A stretch of DNA of 32,906 nucleotides from Candidatus Kuenenia stuttgartensis (GTDB lineage: Bacteria; Planctomycetota; Planctomycetia; Pirellulales; UBA1268), in the NCBI GenBank assembly GCA_945897435.1, contig CAMDFJ010000016.1, positions 1 to 32,906 of the forward strand, given 5' to 3'. How positions within the stretch are numbered: the stretch's first letter is position 1; each line of letters starts with the position of its first letter. The notes below the pieces were generated by a model. The model was given only the letters and a program-made list of their open reading frames with translations. It was not told where the DNA came from and ran no database searches. Positions 8,917 to 24,503 of this stretch are shown here, in pieces. Position numbers and translations under genes: made by a program.

Positions 8917-9400
8917 GATCGTGCTGCCGGCGCATGTTGGGAAGCTGGGCCTGAAAGCACCAGGCGATCGCCGCCACGAGCCCGATGCCTCCGATCAGGT
9001 GCGGCGTGACCCAGGCCTCGGTCCCGGGCCGGCCCGACGCCGGGTCGGCGGCGCCGCCGAGGGCCACGATCGCCACCACCCCGAGCATCCCCAGCAGTGC
9101 GAATGGAAAAGCCTTTCGCTTGAGCCTCCGGCTCTCGTCGATGTAACTGGAATTCAATCCATAGGTCTCGACCACTTCGCGGCACCAGCGGCCCGTCCCG
9201 ATGAAGTAGGTGACGGCCATGCTGTTGACGAGCACGACCGTCAGGGCGGCCAGGACGCCGGAGAGACGGTGCACGGTGCCCCAGCGGAGCACCGCGGGAT
9301 CGGTCTGGCCGTGAAGGTCGCCCAGCCAGAGTCCGAGCCCGGCCGTCGCCACCATCAATGCCACGGCGAAGATCGCCACCCTGGAAAAGACTCGCTCCAT
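8837..9400 (-). CDS. Four-helix membrane protein of unknown function
   Basis: 187 aa. Four hydrophobic segments are visible: residues about 6-27, 46-70, 95-118 and 132-150. A Cys-containing loop 'GTGRWCREVVETYG' follows helix 2, and a charged C-terminal tail 'RRQHDLIERVLEEVRS' follows helix 4. His at 'GTVHRLSGVLAA' and 'VTPHLIGGIGL' within helices could bind haem or metal, but this is only suggestive. The ATG at 9400 follows GAGGAG at about 9 bases. A TATAAA (9462-9457) about 57 bases upstream could be a -10 element; no good -35 goes with it. The 3' end overlaps the convergent ZIP gene by 80 bases. I do not recognise a named family. Confidence 0.75.
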   Translation of the reverse strand: MERVFSRVAIFAVALMVATAGLGLWLGDLHGQTDPAVLRWGTVHRLSGVLAALTVVLVNSMAVTYFIGTGRWCREVVETYGLNSSYIDESRRLKRKAFPFALLGMLGVVAIVALGGAADPASGRPGTEAWVTPHLIGGIGLVAAIAWCFQAQLPNMRRQHDLIERVLEEVRSVRLARGLDVDLQTPA

Positions 9401-9521
9401 CTGAATTCCTGCTCCTCAATGCCACTGCCGGCCGCGGTAGTGACGGCCTCGAACCATTTATAGGCAGGTCATCGCGACGGCACCATTCGAACGCCGCTAT
9501 CGTGGCCAAGTGCCTGCCGCG

Positions 9522-10511
9522 TCAGGGGCGAAGCGGCCCGAGCTGCTGGACGACGACGCTCGTGGTATCGCTCAGTCCCTCGATGGCCGGCTTGTAGACG
9601 AACGCCGTGGCATCGACCGGTTCACCGATCCGCACGTCGTAGAGTTCGAGGACCGCCACGACCTCCGCAGGCCGTTCGGCGACCGGCCGCTTTCCCGGGA
9701 TCGCCAGCCATTCGATTCGAAACGGGAACAGTTCCCGCTGGCTGATCGAGAGCCGAACGCCCCAGGGAACGCCTTCGGGGAGGTCGGACGCTGCGACCTC
9801 TTCCCCGTCCACGATCGCCTTGGCCTGAGCGGGCAGATGGGCTGCGAGGCGGTCGCGGTTCCAGCGGCCCTCGATGCTCCAGACCGGCACTTCGTCGATC
9901 GCCGCCGCCGATACGCTCTCGAACCTGAACCATTCGCGGACGAGGGCCAGCGTCCGTTGTACGCCCCCGAGGTAGGGCGACACGCAGGCCTGATCCCTGA
10001 CGCCGAGTGCCTCGAGCCGCTCGCGGACGCTTCTGATGTCGACCCGCTCGACCGTCGGCGGCGCCGCAGCCAGCCGGCGAAACGACCAGGAGAAGATCCC
10101 ATCGCAGACTTCGAGGACCTCGAATTCCTCGGTATCGGCGCTGAGCAGCGACTCGAACCGGAATCGCTGCTCTTCTCCAAGGCCGGATTGCAGATAGCGT
10201 CCGCCCCCCTTGAGCACCGTGTCGCCGACCCGGGCGAGTTGTCGGACCCGGGCCGAGAACGAGGCCGCGTTGCCCAGGCCGGCAAGTGATGCGGCGACGA
10301 TCCGCTCCGCCCGTTCGGCCGGTGCCGCCCGTTCCAACCGCTGGTAGATGCTGCCCGGCACCGGTGGCTGGGCCCGGGCCGGGGCGGGAAACGCGGCCAG
10401 CAGTCCGAGGACGGCGAACGTTGGAATCGAAAGCCCCGTCGCCCTCGGCCAGAAAGGGTTCGATCGGCGCGGTGGCAGACCCGGGGGTTTGGGGTGCTGG
10501 GTGTGCTTCAC
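9522..10511 (-). CDS. Exported LolA-like protein
   Basis: About 329 aa from the GTG at 10511; the open frame extends further but that region is non-coding in character. A signal peptide (TGLSIPTFAVLGLLAAFPAP, then ARAQ) ends near residue 46, so the product is exported. The mature part has short strands such as 'GGGRYLQSGLGEEQRFRFES' and 'VLEVCDGIFSWSFRRL', the pattern of LolA/outer-membrane lipoprotein-sorting-like domains in planctomycetes. A second region near residue 200 (VWSIEGRWNRDRLAAHLP) suggests a lipoprotein/lipid-binding beta half-barrel. There is no clear ribosome binding site for the GTG, so the start is uncertain. It is divergent from the lipoprotein gene at 10705. Specific cargo is unknown. 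Confidence 0.7.
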   Translation of the reverse strand: MKHTQHPKPPGLPPRRSNPFWPRATGLSIPTFAVLGLLAAFPAPARAQPPVPGSIYQRLERAAPAERAERIVAASLAGLGNAASFSARVRQLARVGDTVLKGGGRYLQSGLGEEQRFRFESLLSADTEEFEVLEVCDGIFSWSFRRLAAAPPTVERVDIRSVRERLEALGVRDQACVSPYLGGVQRTLALVREWFRFESVSAAAIDEVPVWSIEGRWNRDRLAAHLPAQAKAIVDGEEVAASDLPEGVPWGVRLSISQRELFPFRIEWLAIPGKRPVAERPAEVVAVLELYDVRIGEPVDATAFVYKPAIEGLSDTTSVVVQQLGPLRP

Positions 10512-14166: not shown

Positions 14167-15354
14167 ATGCTCCCTGCTTCCGTCACACGGTCGTTGCCGC
14201 CCTTCGTCCTCGCGCTGGCGGCCATCGCCGGGCTGTCGCTGCAGTCCTTCGCCCCGCCGGTTCAGGCCCAACAGACGGCGACGCCGAAGCGTCCTCAGGC
14301 CGCCGGCGTGCCGCAGGTGCCGCCGCTGCCGGAAGGCACCCCCGAGCAGTTGATGGCCTTCGTCGAAGGACTCACCCAGAGCAATGTCCGTCCGAAGAGC
14401 CGGGAAGAGATGATGGGCTACATGCGGGATGTCGCCGCGGTGTCGGTCCAGGCCGCCGACAGGATCCTCGCCCAGGTGAAGCCGGCCGACCCGCTCCACG
14501 ACCGCGCGGCGAAGATGAAACTCCAGAGTCTGACGATGCTCGGCAGGCTCGGCGACGAGAAGGCATCCAAGGAGATGGCCGCCTTCAGCCAGACGCTCGT
14601 CAACGGGCCGTCGGTCGAACTCGCCAACGAAGCCAAGCGGCTCCTGATCGTCGCCGAGGCCCAGGAGATGTTCGCCAGTGGCAAGCTCGACGGCGGGGCC
14701 GCACTGATCCAGAAGACAGCCGCGATGCTGACGGCGATGCCCGACGACGCCCAGACGGCCGGTCTGGCGATGCAGCTCGCCGGGGCCTTCGAACATCTGC
14801 CGGGTGGCGAGCAGCTCGCCGCCACCGCCTACAGCACGTTCGGCCCGATGTTTGCCAAGAGCGGCAGCGAGGAGATCCGCGCGATGGGCGAGAGTTTTGC
14901 GGGCACCCTGCGCCGGCTCTCGCTGCCCGGGCATCCGATGGAGATCAGCGGCACCCTCCTCAGCGGCAAGCCCTTCGACCAGAAATCGCTGGCCGGCAAG
15001 GTCGTGCTCGTCGACTTCTGGGCCACCTGGTGCGGCCCCTGCATCGCCGAGATCCCCAACGTGCTCGAACAGTATGAGAAGTACCACGACAAGGGCTTCG
15101 AGGTCGTGGGTGTCAGCCTCGACGAGGATCGCGACGCGCTCGAGAAGTTCGTCGCCGAGCAGAAGATCCCCTGGCCAATCCTCTATGAAAAGCCGCAGGG
15201 CGAAGGCTGGCGGCATCCGCTCTCCACCTTCTATGGCATCAGCGGGATTCCGACTGTGATCCTCATCGGCCGTGACGGCAACGTGGTCACCCTCGATGCC
15301 CGGGGCGAGAAGCTCGGCGAACAACTCGACAAGTTGTTCGCGGGCGGGAAGTGA
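14167..15354 (+). CDS. TlpA/ResA-like thiol-disulfide oxidoreductase
   Basis: 395 aa. An N-terminal signal peptide (to about residue 36, VQAQ) exports it. A roughly 210-residue alpha-helical region of unknown role precedes a thioredoxin-fold domain from about residue 258. The active site is WCGPC at 288-292 (redox Cys289 and Cys292), inside 'VVLVDFWATWCGPCIAEIPN'. The cis-proline segment SGIPTVILIGRDG is also present, so the domain looks complete. This is the membrane-associated TlpA/ResA type that reduces or exchanges disulfides outside the cytoplasm. It follows the Cys-rich lipoprotein gene by 87 bases and precedes the aminotransferase by 9 bases. Confidence 0.9.
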   Translation: MLPASVTRSLPPFVLALAAIAGLSLQSFAPPVQAQQTATPKRPQAAGVPQVPPLPEGTPEQLMAFVEGLTQSNVRPKSREEMMGYMRDVAAVSVQAADRILAQVKPADPLHDRAAKMKLQSLTMLGRLGDEKASKEMAAFSQTLVNGPSVELANEAKRLLIVAEAQEMFASGKLDGGAALIQKTAAMLTAMPDDAQTAGLAMQLAGAFEHLPGGEQLAATAYSTFGPMFAKSGSEEIRAMGESFAGTLRRLSLPGHPMEISGTLLSGKPFDQKSLAGKVVLVDFWATWCGPCIAEIPNVLEQYEKYHDKGFEVVGVSLDEDRDALEKFVAEQKIPWPILYEKPQGEGWRHPLSTFYGISGIPTVILIGRDGNVVTLDARGEKLGEQLDKLFAGGK

Positions 15355-15363
15355 TCGACACCG

Positions 15364-16470
15364 GTGCGTCGCGGGATTTCGAAACGGGCCGCCGCCTTCG
15401 ATTCGTCAGGCATCCGCAAGGTCTTCGACCTTGCGGCGAAACTCGACGACCCGATCAATCTCTCGATCGGCCAGCCTGATTTCCCGATGCCGGAGGCGGC
15501 CCGCGGGGCGGCCAGGCAGGCGATCGACGCCGGCCGCAATGGCTACACGCCCACCCAGGGCATTCCGGCCCTTCGTGACAGGCTCGAGGCCGAGGCCCGG
15601 GCTGAAACCGGCCAGCCCGATCGGCGGCTCTGCGTCACCAGCGGTTCGAGTGGTGGACTCGTGCTCGCGCTGATGTCGCTGATCGACCCCGGCGACGAGG
15701 TGATCATCTTCGAGCCGGCCTTTCTGATGTACCGCCCGCTGGTGGAGTTTCTCGGCGGTCGCTGCCTGGTGATCGACACGGCCCCCTCGTTTCGGATCGA
15801 TGTCGACCGCGTGGCGGCCTCGATCAGCGGCGCGACCCGGGCGATCCTGCTCAACACCCCGGCCAATCCCACGGGAGTGGTCGTCGATGCCGACACCGTC
15901 GGGGATCTGGCCCGGCTGGCGGAGTCGCGGGGCGTCACCCTCGTCAGCGACGAACTCTACCGCTCCTATTGCTACGACGCCCCCTTCTCCTCCCCTGCCC
16001 TGCACTCCGAGGAGGTGGTGGTCATCGATGGCTTCTCGAAGTCGCACGCCATGACGGGCTGGCGGGTGGGCTGGGTGCATGGCCCGAAGCCGATCATCGA
16101 TGCCTGCACCATGATCCAGCAATACACCTTTGTCTGCGCCCCGCAGGTCGGCCAGTGGGCGGCCCTGGCCGCGCTCGACGCGCCGATGGATCTGCCGCTT
16201 GCCGAGTGCCGACGGAAGCGGGACAGGCTCATGGCCGGTCTCCGCGACCGCTATCGATTCGTCCAGCCTGGCGGTGCCTTCTACCTCTATCCAGAAGCCC
16301 CCGGCGGCTCGGGCCGGGCCTTCGCCGAGCGGGCCATCGAGCGGGAAAAACTGCTTCTCGTGCCGGGCACCGTCTTTGGCACGGCCGACACCCACTTTCG
16401 GATCGCCTACACCGTCAGCGATGCGATGCTCGACCGGGGTATCGCTGCCCTCAACCGACTCGCCGAATGA
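15364..16470 (+). CDS. Class I/II aminotransferase, possible MfnC-type transaminase
   Basis: 368 aa PLP-dependent aminotransferase of fold type I. The PLP lysine is Lys226 in GFSKSHAMTGWRVGW. NTPANPTG binds the cofactor pyridine side, SDELYRSYCY carries the Asp/Tyr pair, and Arg346 (FRIAYT) is the carboxylate-binding arginine. The GTG start at 15364 gives the expected length and sits 9 bases after the thioredoxin-like gene. By sequence alone it could be any aspartate/aromatic-type transaminase. It lies directly upstream of three methanofuran-type biosynthesis genes, and archaeal MfnC (4-HFC-phosphate:alanine transaminase) is a class I enzyme of about this length, so MfnC is a reasonable guess but unproven. 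Confidence 0.88.
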   Translation: MRRGISKRAAAFDSSGIRKVFDLAAKLDDPINLSIGQPDFPMPEAARGAARQAIDAGRNGYTPTQGIPALRDRLEAEARAETGQPDRRLCVTSGSSGGLVLALMSLIDPGDEVIIFEPAFLMYRPLVEFLGGRCLVIDTAPSFRIDVDRVAASISGATRAILLNTPANPTGVVVDADTVGDLARLAESRGVTLVSDELYRSYCYDAPFSSPALHSEEVVVIDGFSKSHAMTGWRVGWVHGPKPIIDACTMIQQYTFVCAPQVGQWAALAALDAPMDLPLAECRRKRDRLMAGLRDRYRFVQPGGAFYLYPEAPGGSGRAFAERAIEREKLLLVPGTVFGTADTHFRIAYTVSDAMLDRGIAALNRLAE

Positions 16471-16547: not shown

Positions 16548-17540
16548 ATGCTGCGGGTGCTGCTGTACGAGTGGTGCTGCTCGGGTGGAGCCGACGCCGT
16601 CGACCGGGAGCCGATCGCGGCCGAGGGACGGGCGATGCTCGAGGCTCTCGCCCGCGACGCTGTCAGGGATGACTCGCTCGCTGTCACCGTGTTCGACGGC
16701 GGAGTGGCGGGGCTCGACCTGCCCCGCGGGGTGCGGCGTTTGCAGGCGCCGGCCGGCCGAGGCCTCGAGCGCCTGCTGGCAGAGTCGCCGAACCACGATC
16801 GTGTGATCCTCGTCGCGCCCGAGACCGACGGCCTGCTGGCAACCCACCTGGCGGGCGTCCGTGCGGCCGGCGGACGTCTGGCTGGATGCGGCGAGCGGTT
16901 TGTGGCCCTCACCGCCGACAAGCAGGCAACCGCCGTCGCCCTCGCTGCCGCAGGGGTGCCAGTGCCCGCCGGCAGACTGCTTGCGGCGGGTGAGCCGATC
17001 CCGGCCGAGTTCCACCGGCCAGCCGTTCGCAAGGCACGGGCGGGCGTCGGCTGCGATGGCCTGCGACTGATCCGGGAGGATCTCCGGAGTGATCTCCGGG
17101 AGGACGATCCTGTGGCGGAAGGCGAGTCGCGGCTCGAGGCCTTCGTGCCCGGGGCGTCGGTCGGCGTCTCCTGCCTCTGCGGTCCGCTCGGGGTGCGGCC
17201 TCTGCCGCCGATGCGGCAGCTGTACACGGGTGGCGACCAGCCGCGACTCGTCGGCCTCGAACGGTTCGATCAGCCTGCGGCTGCGGACCGCGGGAAGGCG
17301 CTTGCGATCCGGGCCATCGAGGCCTGCAACCGGGCGACGGGCGATCCCGAAGCTGCGGCGGGCTGGGTGGGAGTCGACATGATCCTCGGCGACCGCGAGG
17401 ATGGTCGGGCTGATCGGGTGCTGGAGTTGAATCCGCGGCTGACGACGTCGTTCGTCGGCCTCTCGGCCATGTTCGACGGCAGCCTCGTGCGGGCGATCAT
17501 CGACGCGGCCGATGGCTGTCTGGGAGGCCGTGGTGTCTGA
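16548..17540 (+). CDS. mfnD: ATP-grasp ligase, MfnD-like (tyramine/tyrosine-glutamate ligase)
   Basis: 330 aa. ATP-grasp features are a Lys/Arg/Gly-rich loop 'RKARAGVGCDG' near residue 160, 'WVGVDMILG' near 273, and the metal-binding strand LELNPRLTTSFVGL with Glu293 and Asn295. The last motif is what I recall for the MfnD/Orf17 group. Archaeal MfnD joins glutamate to tyramine in methanofuran; bacterial methylofuran carries a related tyrosine and polyglutamate side chain, so the amine substrate may differ. The next gene overlaps its end, and the next two genes belong to the same pathway, which supports the call. Weaker alternative: an unrelated ATP-grasp amino acid ligase. Confidence 0.78.
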   Translation: MLRVLLYEWCCSGGADAVDREPIAAEGRAMLEALARDAVRDDSLAVTVFDGGVAGLDLPRGVRRLQAPAGRGLERLLAESPNHDRVILVAPETDGLLATHLAGVRAAGGRLAGCGERFVALTADKQATAVALAAAGVPVPAGRLLAAGEPIPAEFHRPAVRKARAGVGCDGLRLIREDLRSDLREDDPVAEGESRLEAFVPGASVGVSCLCGPLGVRPLPPMRQLYTGGDQPRLVGLERFDQPAAADRGKALAIRAIEACNRATGDPEAAAGWVGVDMILGDREDGRADRVLELNPRLTTSFVGLSAMFDGSLVRAIIDAADGCLGGRGV

Positions 17541-18576
17541 TTCGGACCAGCTGCTCGCGTTCGATGTCGGGGGTGCGAACATCAAGGCCGCCGATGGCCT
17601 CGGCTGGACGTCGAGCGAGCCGTTCGAACTCTGGCGGCAACCCGAGCGGCTCGGCGCGGCCCTCGCCCGGACTGCCGCGATGCGTCGGCCTCGCCGGATC
17701 GTCGCCACGATGACCGGAGAGATCGCCGACTGCTTTCATTCCCGGGCCGAGGGCGTGGCAGGGATCGTGGCGGCGATCGAGGCCGCGGCGGAGAGCCTCG
17801 ACCCACCCGCCTCGGTTGGCATCTATCTCGTCGATGGATCGATCGTGAGCTCTGCCGAGGCCATCTCCCGTCCACTCGATGCCGCCGCATCCAACTGGCA
17901 TGCGATGGCGAGGCTTGCGGGCCGGCATGCCGCCAGCGATCGGGCCCTCGTGATCGACGTCGGTTCGACCACGACCGACATCCTGCCGCTCTTCGATCGT
18001 CAGGTCGCAGCCGTCGCCTGCGACGACATCGGCAGAATGGCCTCGGGCGAGCTCGTCTACACCGGCGTGGAGCGGACGCCCGTCGCAGCGACCGTGCGGT
18101 CGCTGCCATTTCGCGGCGGCAGTGGCCGCAGCCTCCGGCCGATCGCGAGTGAACGCTACGCCGATTCCAGGGATGTCTGGCTGCTGCTTGGCGGTCTGCC
18201 GGAGAATCCCGCATCCAGGGAGACGGCCGATGGCCAGCCCTTCACGCGGGAGGCTTCGCGGATTCGGCTGGCCCGGATGCTTCTGGCCGATCCTTGCGAC
18301 TTCAGCTCCGCAGATGCCGATTCCGCCGCCCGTTGGTGCGCCGGCCTGCAGGCTCGGCAGGTCGCCCGCTCGATCGCTTCGGTCGTACGGGCGATCGGCT
18401 GGCGACCGACGAGCATTGTCGAAAGCGGTCACGGGGCGTGCCTGGCGAGGATGGCCCTCGAGCGGCTCGGATGGAACCTCCCCACGGTGTCGCTGCCAGA
18501 TCTGATCGGACCCGGGCCATCGCGGGCGGCGCCGGCCCATGCGTTGGCGCTGATCGCCCGCGGGGAAATTCCATGA
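17533..18576 (+). CDS. mfnF: MfnF-like synthase of methanofuran/methylofuran biosynthesis (hydantoinase/oxoprolinase fold)
   Basis: About 347 aa in the hydantoinase/oxoprolinase (ASKHA-like) superfamily, known as the 'H4MPT-linked C1 transfer pathway protein'. Archaeal MfnF couples the aminomethylfuran diphosphate to gamma-glutamyltyramine. Visible motifs are FDVGGANIKAADG at the N-terminus, the second phosphate-binding strand VIDVGSTTTDILP (Asp142), 'MASGELVYTGVERTPV', and a C-terminal 'IVESGHGACLARMALE'. Start choice: an ATG at 17512 is in frame, but GGGAGG at 17522-17527 fits the GTG at 17533 with normal spacing. Either start overlaps the ATP-grasp gene end. The stop overlaps the next start by ATGA. 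The call is strong because the family is pathway-specific. Confidence 0.88.
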   Translation: MSDSDQLLAFDVGGANIKAADGLGWTSSEPFELWRQPERLGAALARTAAMRRPRRIVATMTGEIADCFHSRAEGVAGIVAAIEAAAESLDPPASVGIYLVDGSIVSSAEAISRPLDAAASNWHAMARLAGRHAASDRALVIDVGSTTTDILPLFDRQVAAVACDDIGRMASGELVYTGVERTPVAATVRSLPFRGGSGRSLRPIASERYADSRDVWLLLGGLPENPASRETADGQPFTREASRIRLARMLLADPCDFSSADADSAARWCAGLQARQVARSIASVVRAIGWRPTSIVESGHGACLARMALERLGWNLPTVSLPDLIGPGPSRAAPAHALALIARGEIP

Positions 18577-19241
18577 GCCCTCAGCCACCGAAAACGGCCA
18601 TCTGGCGGCAGGGATGGCTGCGGGGCCCGGCGGGCTCGACAGCGGACTTCCCCTCCACGCTCAAGATCGGAGGCAGTCTGCTTGCCTGGCCCGACTGGCC
18701 GCAGCTGATCCGGGCCCGCGTCGAGGAGTTCGATCCCGCCTCGCCACCCCTGCTCGTGGTCGGCGGCGGCCGGATCGTCGACGGTCTCAGGGCAATCGAT
18801 GCAGTGGCACCACAGCCTGTCCGGATCGTCCATCGGCTGGCGATCGATCTGATGGGCGTCACCGCCCGACTGGTGGCCGAAGCAGTCGGCCTGCCGCTCG
18901 TCGGCGATCAGAGGATCGCATCGGCGGCCGTGCTCGACATCTCCCTCTGGATCGAGGCGGAGGGCCGCGGTTCCCGCCTGCCCGATGGCTGGGACGTCAC
19001 GAGCGATTCGATCGCCGCAGCCGTCGCGGAGGAGCGGGGAGGAACGCTCGTGCTCGCCAAGAGCCTGCCCCCTCCAGGTGTCGCAGCCGCCTGGAGCCTC
19101 GAGCAACTCGCCGAGGCCGGCTGGGTGGACAGGTTCTTTCCCGAGGCGGCGAAAAGGATCGCGGCGATTGCCTGGTGCTGCCCCGATTCAGTCCCACCAC
19201 CAGCGGTCGGCGGGACGGGTCTCGAGTGCCGCAACTCGTGA
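18573..19241 (+). CDS. mfnE: Amino acid kinase family protein, MfnE-like
   Basis: 222 aa from the ATG at 18573, which overlaps the previous stop (ATGA). Motifs of the amino acid kinase fold are STLKIGGSLLAWPDW near residue 30 and LLVVGGGRIVDGLRAID near residue 60. Archaeal MfnE phosphorylates the aminomethylfuran phosphate to the diphosphate used by MfnF, and a short kinase of this type sits next to MfnF homologues in bacterial C1 islands. The last roughly 20 residues (CCPDSVPPPAVGG onward) do not look like a conserved terminus. The 3' end overlaps the convergent DUF1598 gene by 54 bases. Confidence 0.8.
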   Translation: MSPQPPKTAIWRQGWLRGPAGSTADFPSTLKIGGSLLAWPDWPQLIRARVEEFDPASPPLLVVGGGRIVDGLRAIDAVAPQPVRIVHRLAIDLMGVTARLVAEAVGLPLVGDQRIASAAVLDISLWIEAEGRGSRLPDGWDVTSDSIAAAVAEERGGTLVLAKSLPPPGVAAAWSLEQLAEAGWVDRFFPEAAKRIAAIAWCCPDSVPPPAVGGTGLECRNS

Positions 19242-20564
19242 AGCACAGGCCGCGTCGGATTCTGTCGTCTGCGTGGCGAACTGCCAGGGCTGAAACTGCA
19301 CGCCGCCGGAGGCCGTCACGATCCAACGGCTTCCCTTCTTGAGGCCACTGGCCACCGTCGACACCGTCGCGGGTGTTTCGTATCTCGGCAGCGAGAGCCG
19401 GCCGGCATCCCGCAGCGGAGCGAGGTCGATACCGGCCCGGCTGTCGAGTTGTCGGGCCTGGATCAACGCGGCCACGACGGCAAGATCGACGCAGTTGACC
19501 AGTTCGGCGAACACCGGCTGCCGCCTGGCGAGTTCGTCGTAGTGGGCGGTCATCGCGCCGCACCACTGAGCGGCGATGGCATCGGCCGGCGCCCGCCCGC
19601 GTTCGATCGTACCGCCCTTGGCGAGCATGTCGGACTCCGTCATGCACTTCATGCCACGCCCCTTGATCTGCCAGGCGAGCTCGTCGGCGTCGCGAACGAT
19701 GGGCTCATAGGTGGCCTCGAGCCAGAACCGTGGCAGCGTCGCGCCGCTCGTTCCGCCGGCTGGGATCATCGACACATAACTGGGCAGGGCCTCCACGCCG
19801 GAGGGCTCGAGCCCCATGCCGATCCGCTTCATGCTGTAGTCCGCTGCGACGAGGACGTGGGCGAAGCGACTGTCGGCAGGCACGCCGCCGACGGAAACCG
19901 TCTGCGGTCCGAGCACGTCCTCCATCGATCGGAGCGTGGCGTCGGGATCGTTGCCGATCCCCTTCAGGCTGCGAAGATAGCGCTGCAATTTGGCAATACC
20001 CTCTGGTGACGGATCGATCGAGCAGCGGACCCCGCCCGATCGAACGCCGTCGATCGATCGCAGGGCGACGATGAAATCCTCGAGCCGCAGCAGCGGGCGG
20101 CCGCTCTGGGCTGCGAGCACGGTTCCGGCATCGTCGATGATGGCGGCGTCGGCTGGACCGGCGAGAATGATGTCGTGGCCATCGGGATCGACGAACAGGT
20201 GGGTGATCTTTTCAAGTCCGCCCATGAAGAGCAGATCCGGCGGTAGTGGCTCGCCGCTCCTGCTGCACCGCTCCACTGCCTCAAGCAGACGGGCGAGTGA
20301 AACCTTTCTCAGCGGAGCCTTTCCCCTGCCGGCTTCCATCGCGGCGATCGCGGCCCGGCGTTCGGCGGCAAGTTCGGCGGAAACCTTGGGATCGAGTCTG
20401 CGGATCATGCCCTCGGTGTCGATCGAGATGCCGCCGACGGCCTGGCCGCCGAAGCCGAAACCCTGGCCATGGGCGGAATTGGCGGCCGTCGTTGCCGCCG
20501 TCGCGACGAGCAGGAACCAGACCGACGTGCCAAGCCGGCGAAACGCTGTTGAAAACGGGCTCAT
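19188..20564 (-). CDS. Exported DUF1598 protein
   Basis: 458 aa. The signal peptide 'GTSVWFLLVATAATTAANSAHG' ends near residue 33. A glycine-rich 'GFGFGGQAVGGISID' segment follows, then a long DUF1598-like region with 'LRKVSLARLLEAVERC', 'HDIILAGPADAAIIDDAG' and 'GRPLLRLEDFIVALR'. I know DUF1598 as a planctomycete family; no biochemical role is known to me. The C-terminus is Trp-rich (DRWWWD). The ATG at 20564 follows GAGGTGG closely. The 3' end lies 54 bases inside the convergent amino acid kinase gene. Divergent from the sigma-54 activator gene. Confidence 0.85.
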   Translation of the reverse strand: MSPFSTAFRRLGTSVWFLLVATAATTAANSAHGQGFGFGGQAVGGISIDTEGMIRRLDPKVSAELAAERRAAIAAMEAGRGKAPLRKVSLARLLEAVERCSRSGEPLPPDLLFMGGLEKITHLFVDPDGHDIILAGPADAAIIDDAGTVLAAQSGRPLLRLEDFIVALRSIDGVRSGGVRCSIDPSPEGIAKLQRYLRSLKGIGNDPDATLRSMEDVLGPQTVSVGGVPADSRFAHVLVAADYSMKRIGMGLEPSGVEALPSYVSMIPAGGTSGATLPRFWLEATYEPIVRDADELAWQIKGRGMKCMTESDMLAKGGTIERGRAPADAIAAQWCGAMTAHYDELARRQPVFAELVNCVDLAVVAALIQARQLDSRAGIDLAPLRDAGRLSLPRYETPATVSTVASGLKKGSRWIVTASGGVQFQPWQFATQTTESDAACASRVAALETRPADRWWWD

Positions 20565-20600: not shown

Positions 20601-20753
20601 TCATCGTAGAGGGATGCCCCACGATGCCGCAAACCCGTTTCACGGCCGAAAAACCAGGATTCTGCGGTCTGGCAGCGGCCGTCTCGGATGAGACAGTTCT
20701 CCGCCCTCCCCAAACGATCGGGCCTGGTGCATGATGCATGTCGAGGCGAAATC

Positions 20754-22712
<1,959 letters not shown>

Positions 22713-23211: not shown

Positions 23212-24503
23212 GGTCCGCCGAGTCGGTGCTTCACGCGGCCGCCCACGATCGTGGCCACCGCCCTGCCCTGCAGCGTCCAGCCGTCGAATGGAGAGTTGAC
23301 GCTCTTCGACTGCATCGACCGCACGTCGACCTTCCAGGTCATCTGAGGGTCGATGATCGTGATGTCGGCCACGGCGCCGGGCCGGAGCGTGCCCCTTGCG
23401 ATGCCGAGAATTTTTGCAGGCAGCGTGCTCATCGCCTCGACGAGCCGCGGCCAGCCGATCCGTCCGCTGGCGACGAGCCGGGTCACTGAAAGGCCCACGG
23501 CCGTCTCCAGTCCGAGGATTCCGAACGGGGCTCGGTCGATCTCCAGCATCTTCTTCTCGCGGGCGTGCGGGGCGTGGTCGGTCGCGATGCAGTCGAGCGT
23601 GCCGTCGGCCAGCCCCTCGATGATCCCCTCGACGTCGGCTGCCGTCCGTAGCGGCGGGCTCATCTTGAAGTTGGCGTCGAAGCCCCGCAGGTTCTCGTCG
23701 CTGAGCGTGAAGTGGTGCGGGCAGGCCTCGGCGGTGACGCGGGCCCCCCGGGCCTTGGCCGCCCGGATCAGGGCGACTCCCCCAGCGGTCGAGACGTGCA
23801 TCACGTGGAGCCTGCCGCTGGTCACCTCTGCCAACGCGATGTCGCGGCCGATCATCACCTCCTCGGCCGCGGCCGGCATGCCGGTGAGGCCGAGCAGAAG
23901 CGAGACGAGCCCCTCGTGCATCACGCCGCCGCGGGAGAGTTCGAGGACCTCCTCGTGGGCGAGGATCGGCTTGTCGAACATCCGGCAGTATTCGAGGGCC
24001 CGGCGCATCAGTTCGGCGTCGTAGACCGGCGCGCCATCGTCGCTGAAGGCCACCGCCCCGGCCTCGACGAGCTGGCCGATGTCGGCCAGCTCCTTCCCCT
24101 CGCGATTGCGGCTCACGCAGCCGACCACGTAGACGTTGCAGGTGTCGGCCCTGGCGGCCTTCTGATGGATGAACTCGACCGTCGACTGGGTGTCGATCGG
24201 CGGCTCCGTGTTGGGGATGCAGGCCACGCTGGTGAAGCCGCCGGCGATCGCCGCACGGGTGCCACTCTCGATCGTCTCGTCCTCCTCCCGGCCAGGCTCG
24301 CGGAGATGAACGTGCATGTCGATCAGGCCGGGGGCGACGACGAGGCCGGTGGCGTCGATCGTCTCGTCGGCCCGGCCGATCGGCTGGGTGCCGTCATTGC
24401 CGATCGCGACGACCAGCCCGTCACGGACGAGCAGATCGTCGAGCCTGTCGATGCCCTGCGAGGGATCGACCACGCGGCCGCCACGAATCAGGAGCGTGCC
24501 CAT
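23208..24503 (-). CDS. pyrC: Dihydroorotase (type I)
   Basis: 431 aa, normal for class I dihydroorotase. It cyclises carbamoyl-aspartate to dihydroorotate in pyrimidine synthesis. Zinc ligands are seen in DMHVHLREPG (His64, His66), and the catalytic aspartate is Asp309 in ATDHAPH. The amidohydrolase fold is complete, ending in the usual 'GTLRPGAVADITIIDP' and 'SPFDGWTLQGR' strands. The start overlaps the pyrB stop by one base (TGATG), and its end overlaps the NYN gene, so the three are translated together. Confidence 0.95.
   Translation of the reverse strand: MGTLLIRGGRVVDPSQGIDRLDDLLVRDGLVVAIGNDGTQPIGRADETIDATGLVVAPGLIDMHVHLREPGREEDETIESGTRAAIAGGFTSVACIPNTEPPIDTQSTVEFIHQKAARADTCNVYVVGCVSRNREGKELADIGQLVEAGAVAFSDDGAPVYDAELMRRALEYCRMFDKPILAHEEVLELSRGGVMHEGLVSLLLGLTGMPAAAEEVMIGRDIALAEVTSGRLHVMHVSTAGGVALIRAAKARGARVTAEACPHHFTLSDENLRGFDANFKMSPPLRTAADVEGIIEGLADGTLDCIATDHAPHAREKKMLEIDRAPFGILGLETAVGLSVTRLVASGRIGWPRLVEAMSTLPAKILGIARGTLRPGAVADITIIDPQMTWKVDVRSMQSKSVNSPFDGWTLQGRAVATIVGGRVKHRLGGP

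Follow-up and report, generated by a model that had tools for sequence, protein, structure and literature searches.

The stretch of DNA analysed here (the window, 32,906 nucleotides) is one entire contig (C16) of a planctomycete genome of 3.02 Mb in 205 contigs, which is 96% complete. Positions 16548-19241 hold three consecutive + strand genes with overlapping ends, in agreement with the initial annotation, which had described an ATP-grasp ligase, an MfnF-type protein and an amino acid kinase in that order. These are an MfnD/Orf1-type ATP-grasp ligase (16548..17540, 330 aa), an MfnF/Orf9-type protein of the TIGR03123 family (17512..18576, 354 aa as called) and an MfnE/Orf21-type kinase with an amino-acid-kinase fold (18573..19241). 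The first two genes overlap by up to 29 bp, and the true MfnF start possibly lies slightly downstream of 17512. The kinase had been listed as a protein of 315 aa starting from a TTG at 18294. This start was too long and was rejected as a mechanical artefact, since homologues align from the ATG at 18573. That start codon shares the sequence ATGA with the MfnF stop codon and gives a protein of 222 aa. The nearest named relatives of the window mfnF come from MAGs that carry the labels Planctomycetaceae, Planctomicrobium and Planctomycetota; Pirellulales are more distant.

Profile searches, which had been suggested as a check, returned matches to the named families for all three proteins, each with a score below the curated cut-offs. 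MfnF aligned with TIGR03123 at E=1.3e-67 over profile positions 3-326 of 327, scoring 228.3 bits against a cut-off of 244.1 bits that is passed by 25 of 294 Planctomycetota genomes. It also matched the MfnF model (E=3.2e-39), where it fell below the cut-off of the methanogen equivalog NF040623 (135 versus 520 bits), as well as PDB 3c0b/3cet, a conserved archaeal protein (3c0b is Q6M145), at 3e-28. The invariant motifs common to planctomycete homologues (DxGGA, N-W and D-GSTTTD) are present, the residues kept including D18, G20, G21, A22, N128, W129, D149, G151, T153, T154 and D156.

The ligase matched ATP-grasp_3 (E=1.7e-12) and, partially, MfnD_Meth (E=1.2e-8), while a profile built from its relatives matched PDB 3df7 at 1.3e-32. 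It scored 34.8 bits on the methanogen MfnD equivalog NF040722, for which the cut-off is 400 bits; the ligase homologue of another planctomycete (G185) reached 111 bits on the same model. In a tree with annotated proteobacterial references, the window ligase was placed in the Orf1/MfnD group, apart from MyfA and MyfB, and its identity as MyfA was rejected on this basis. Support was 100/100 for the MyfA branch, 100/100 for the MyfB branch and 92/90 for the side uniting Orf1 with the planctomycete proteins. The join between MyfA and MyfB was flagged for long branches, and the window ligase lies outside it. The tree thereby separated three glutamate ligases in this genome, namely MfnD/Orf1 in the window, MyfA on contig C87 and MyfB on contig C117. 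The kinase taken alone gave a weak match to MfnE (E=6.5e-4; 19.5 bits on the methanogen equivalog NF040622, cut-off 300 bits). A profile of six planctomycete neighbours of the window kinase (profile A3) recovered the Orf21-position kinases of the Cupriavidus, Azoarcus and Thiodictyon H4MPT clusters, with E-values of 4.7e-35, 1.8e-28 and 4e-24, and the kinase profile matched PDB 7qrh at 5.7e-16. The motifs K-GGSL, GGG, SDSIAA and KS are kept.

The three families occur in the same order and with overlapping ends in the orf1-orf9-orf21 segment of Azoarcus sp. KH32C pAZKH. That segment shares an annotated H4MPT methylotrophy island with mch, fae, mtdB and mfnB, whereas here these genes are on other contigs. 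Azospirillum and Thiodictyon likewise have the ligase-mfnF order of the window. The proteobacterial reference sequences are distant from the window proteins, with phmmer scores of 80 bits for the ligase and 95-133 bits for MfnF across references. Homology to methanogen MfnD, MfnE and MfnF is detectable, being strongest for MfnF, and the same reactions are predicted. None of the three proteins reaches the methanogen NCBIfam cut-offs, so that they belong to the bacterial branch and are not methanogen equivalogs in the NCBIfam sense. MyfA (OrfY) and MyfB (Orf5) of methylotrophic proteobacteria are ATP-grasp ligases of the same coenzyme, and both have counterparts in this genome in addition to the window ligase.

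None of the genes scanned by profile search in the window belongs to the mch, fhc, fae or mtd families, in keeping with the initial annotation's remark that the enzymes of C1 transfer are absent from it. A match to the FwdA model at 24303-24494 was considered as fhcA and rejected as a pyrC-like amidohydrolase. Whole-genome searches found these families on contigs other than the window: mch together with myfB on C117, fhcA and fhcB on C59, an N-terminal piece of fhcD whose gene start lies at the very end of C175 (contig-cut), and two fae genes, a strong one on C87 and a second on C40, as well as an mtdB-like gene. The furan-forming candidate mfnB is on C96. The proposal had been held to fall if the genome lacked all H4MPT enzymes; because they are present, this objection fails. 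On C87 (L149:1850-4881) the mtdB-like gene and fae stand beside a divergently oriented myfA, forming a second small H4MPT/methylofuran cluster. The C40 fae (L150) is divergent (E=2e-34, match at 9296-9793). Near mch and myfB on C117 (L007:3-1370), citG-like (orf7 position) and 6-pyruvoyl-tetrahydropterin-synthase-like domains share one frame in an apparent fusion. Orf17 gave only a weak match, which may be an ordinary HisA/HisF relative.

Across a phylum survey of 294 Planctomycetota genomes, all 27 genomes with a convincing MfnF have mch, and 27 of the 28 genomes with mch have MfnF, the sole exception being 83% complete. Weak, short TIGR03123 matches (E ~1e-4) in five genomes of the phylum were treated as hydantoinase-like and left out of this count. 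Gene order is also conserved: at named-genome planctomycete loci the ligase adjoins mfnF in 56 of the 70 cases with room upstream and the kinase in 63 of the 75 with room downstream, both far beyond chance. Blastopirellula marina and Lacipirellula limnantheis are cultured planctomycetes that have the block. The ligase is, however, not always part of the block, since in two close relatives (L070:2043-4236 and L074:8233-10432) the locus is syntenic except that it lacks the ATP-grasp gene, and the aminotransferase runs straight into mfnF with overlapping ends. The initial annotation had further described the block as split from the genes that use its product. This holds in that mch and the others lie on other contigs, but it is no peculiarity of this genome: in genomes of this class that consist of a single contig, mfnF and mch are megabases apart (1.59 versus 3.93 Mb in G291, 1.25 versus 4.24 Mb in G283), so that the separation is normal. 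A few planctomycetes do keep the block beside mch. In G185 (L060) the ligase, mfnF and kinase share a locus with citG/queD, myfB and mch and have mfnB next to them, and in a Gemmataceae MAG (L136) mfnF and mfnE lie ~2-3 kb from mch and myfB.

Methylofuran is a carrier coenzyme for one-carbon units in the oxidation of formaldehyde. The block at 16548-19241 very probably represents, in planctomycete form, the bacterial operon for the methylofuran core, orf1-orf9-orf21 (mfnD-mfnF-mfnE). The analysis shows what the genes are, where they fall in the tree, how they co-occur and what else the genome encodes; every enzymatic activity proposed below, and the product, is predicted from homology. MfnB would make the furan phosphate, to which a transaminase, MfnC, would add the amine. 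The window kinase, as MfnE, would then phosphorylate the aminated furan phosphate to the pyrophosphate, while the MfnD/Orf1-type ligase would join glutamate to tyrosine or tyramine and MfnF would couple the furan to the resulting Tyr/tyramine-Glu unit. MyfA is expected to add a second glutamate and MyfB to lengthen the polyglutamate tail. The Fhc formyltransferase/hydrolase complex would bind the completed coenzyme, which would act together with Fae, Mtd and Mch in the H4MPT-linked oxidation of formaldehyde. The roles of MfnE, MfnD/Orf1, MfnF, MyfA, MyfB and Fhc follow a published scheme, in which no gene is assigned for bacterial MfnC or for the tyrosine-glutamate ligase (PMC8141765). The initial description of the block as the last steps of methanofuran synthesis thus suits MfnE and MfnF, which act late, and not MfnD, as the ligation of glutamate to tyrosine or tyramine is not a late step. 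The H4MPT/methanofuran genes of Planctomycetes have been reviewed and their presence is known in outline, as had been stated (PMC5020050). Compared with the planctomycetes of that review, the present lineage belongs to the same phylum and has the same pathway, with a small genome (3.0 Mb) and scattered genes. Many methylotrophic bacteria and planctomycetes are already known to carry these genes, and most of the remaining pathway genes are elsewhere in this genome, which makes this an ordinary example. The finding confirms a known pathway.

The single-sequence scores of the ligase and kinase, weak and under the curated cut-offs, would be compatible with the three proteins being unrelated ATP-grasp, hydantoinase and amino-acid-kinase family members of some other pathway. 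The tree, the profiles, the conserved gene order and the shared occurrence with mch speak against this. Each of the three proteins groups with the methano/methylofuran families, and we strongly disfavour the unrelated-family reading as highly improbable. A separate matter is the class I aminotransferase directly upstream of the methylofuran block (15364..16470, + strand; Aminotran_1_2, 2.4e-54), which might be the missing bacterial MfnC. It is on the same strand and immediately precedes the block, its end overlaps the mfnF start in the two relatives without the ligase gene, and its matches include PDB 2z61, an entry for an aspartate aminotransferase (M. jannaschii MJ0684). Other solved aminotransferases match it better, however, and in most relatives it does not adjoin the block. 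Of the 294 Planctomycetota, 158 have a close homologue, and most of these lack mch; among them is G167, which belongs to the same order (5e-132). Because the aminotransferase is so common in planctomycetes without mch, we consider its identity as MfnC unlikely and reject a firm claim.

Within the methylofuran assignment, the chances that the product has a tyrosine core, with the MfnD/Orf1-type ligase acting on tyrosine, appear about even. This reading arises because the organism has no MfnA: no match to the MfnA-type tyrosine decarboxylase family (PF00282) was found in the 96%-complete genome, by a search that was positive in 8 of 14 control genomes. Which of the two cores is made has been investigated in proteobacteria. 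There, tyrosine-type producers are without MfnA homologues, but 3 of 6 tyramine-type strains also have no recognisable MfnA, and MfnD is absent from most tyrosine-type strains, unlike the present genome with its MfnD/Orf1 type (PMC8141765). In addition, the assembly may lack 4% of the genome. The absence of PF00282 thus leans towards a tyrosine core and is not decisive. That planctomycetes in general make tyrosine-core methylofuran via a MfnD/Orf1-type ligase accepting tyrosine is a more doubtful proposal, which we put forward tentatively; if true, such a ligase would fill the tyrosine-glutamate ligation step. The loss of the ligase from the locus in some close relatives suggests that a different ligase may substitute for it. 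Measurements of methylofuran exist for proteobacteria; for planctomycetes, the literature searched contained neither a measurement nor core-type data. The combination of MfnD/Orf1, MyfA and MyfB without a recognisable MfnA allows the question of the core to be tested directly in a further major group of bacteria.

Upstream of the aminotransferase lies a gene for a thioredoxin-domain (ResA/TlpA-like) protein (14167..15354, + strand; Redoxin, 3.3e-19), for which a role in the pathway is not implied. On the other side, a DUF1598 protein is encoded convergently (19188..20564, - strand; PF07643, 1.1e-24), followed by a FHA-GAF-sigma54 activator (20688..22712, + strand; Sigma54_activat 3.1e-69, with FHA, GAF and a Fis-type HTH). 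Both are often conserved beside the block and are possibly linked to it functionally, the activator perhaps through regulation of the block. Of 80 related planctomycete loci, 41 have both genes close to the block.
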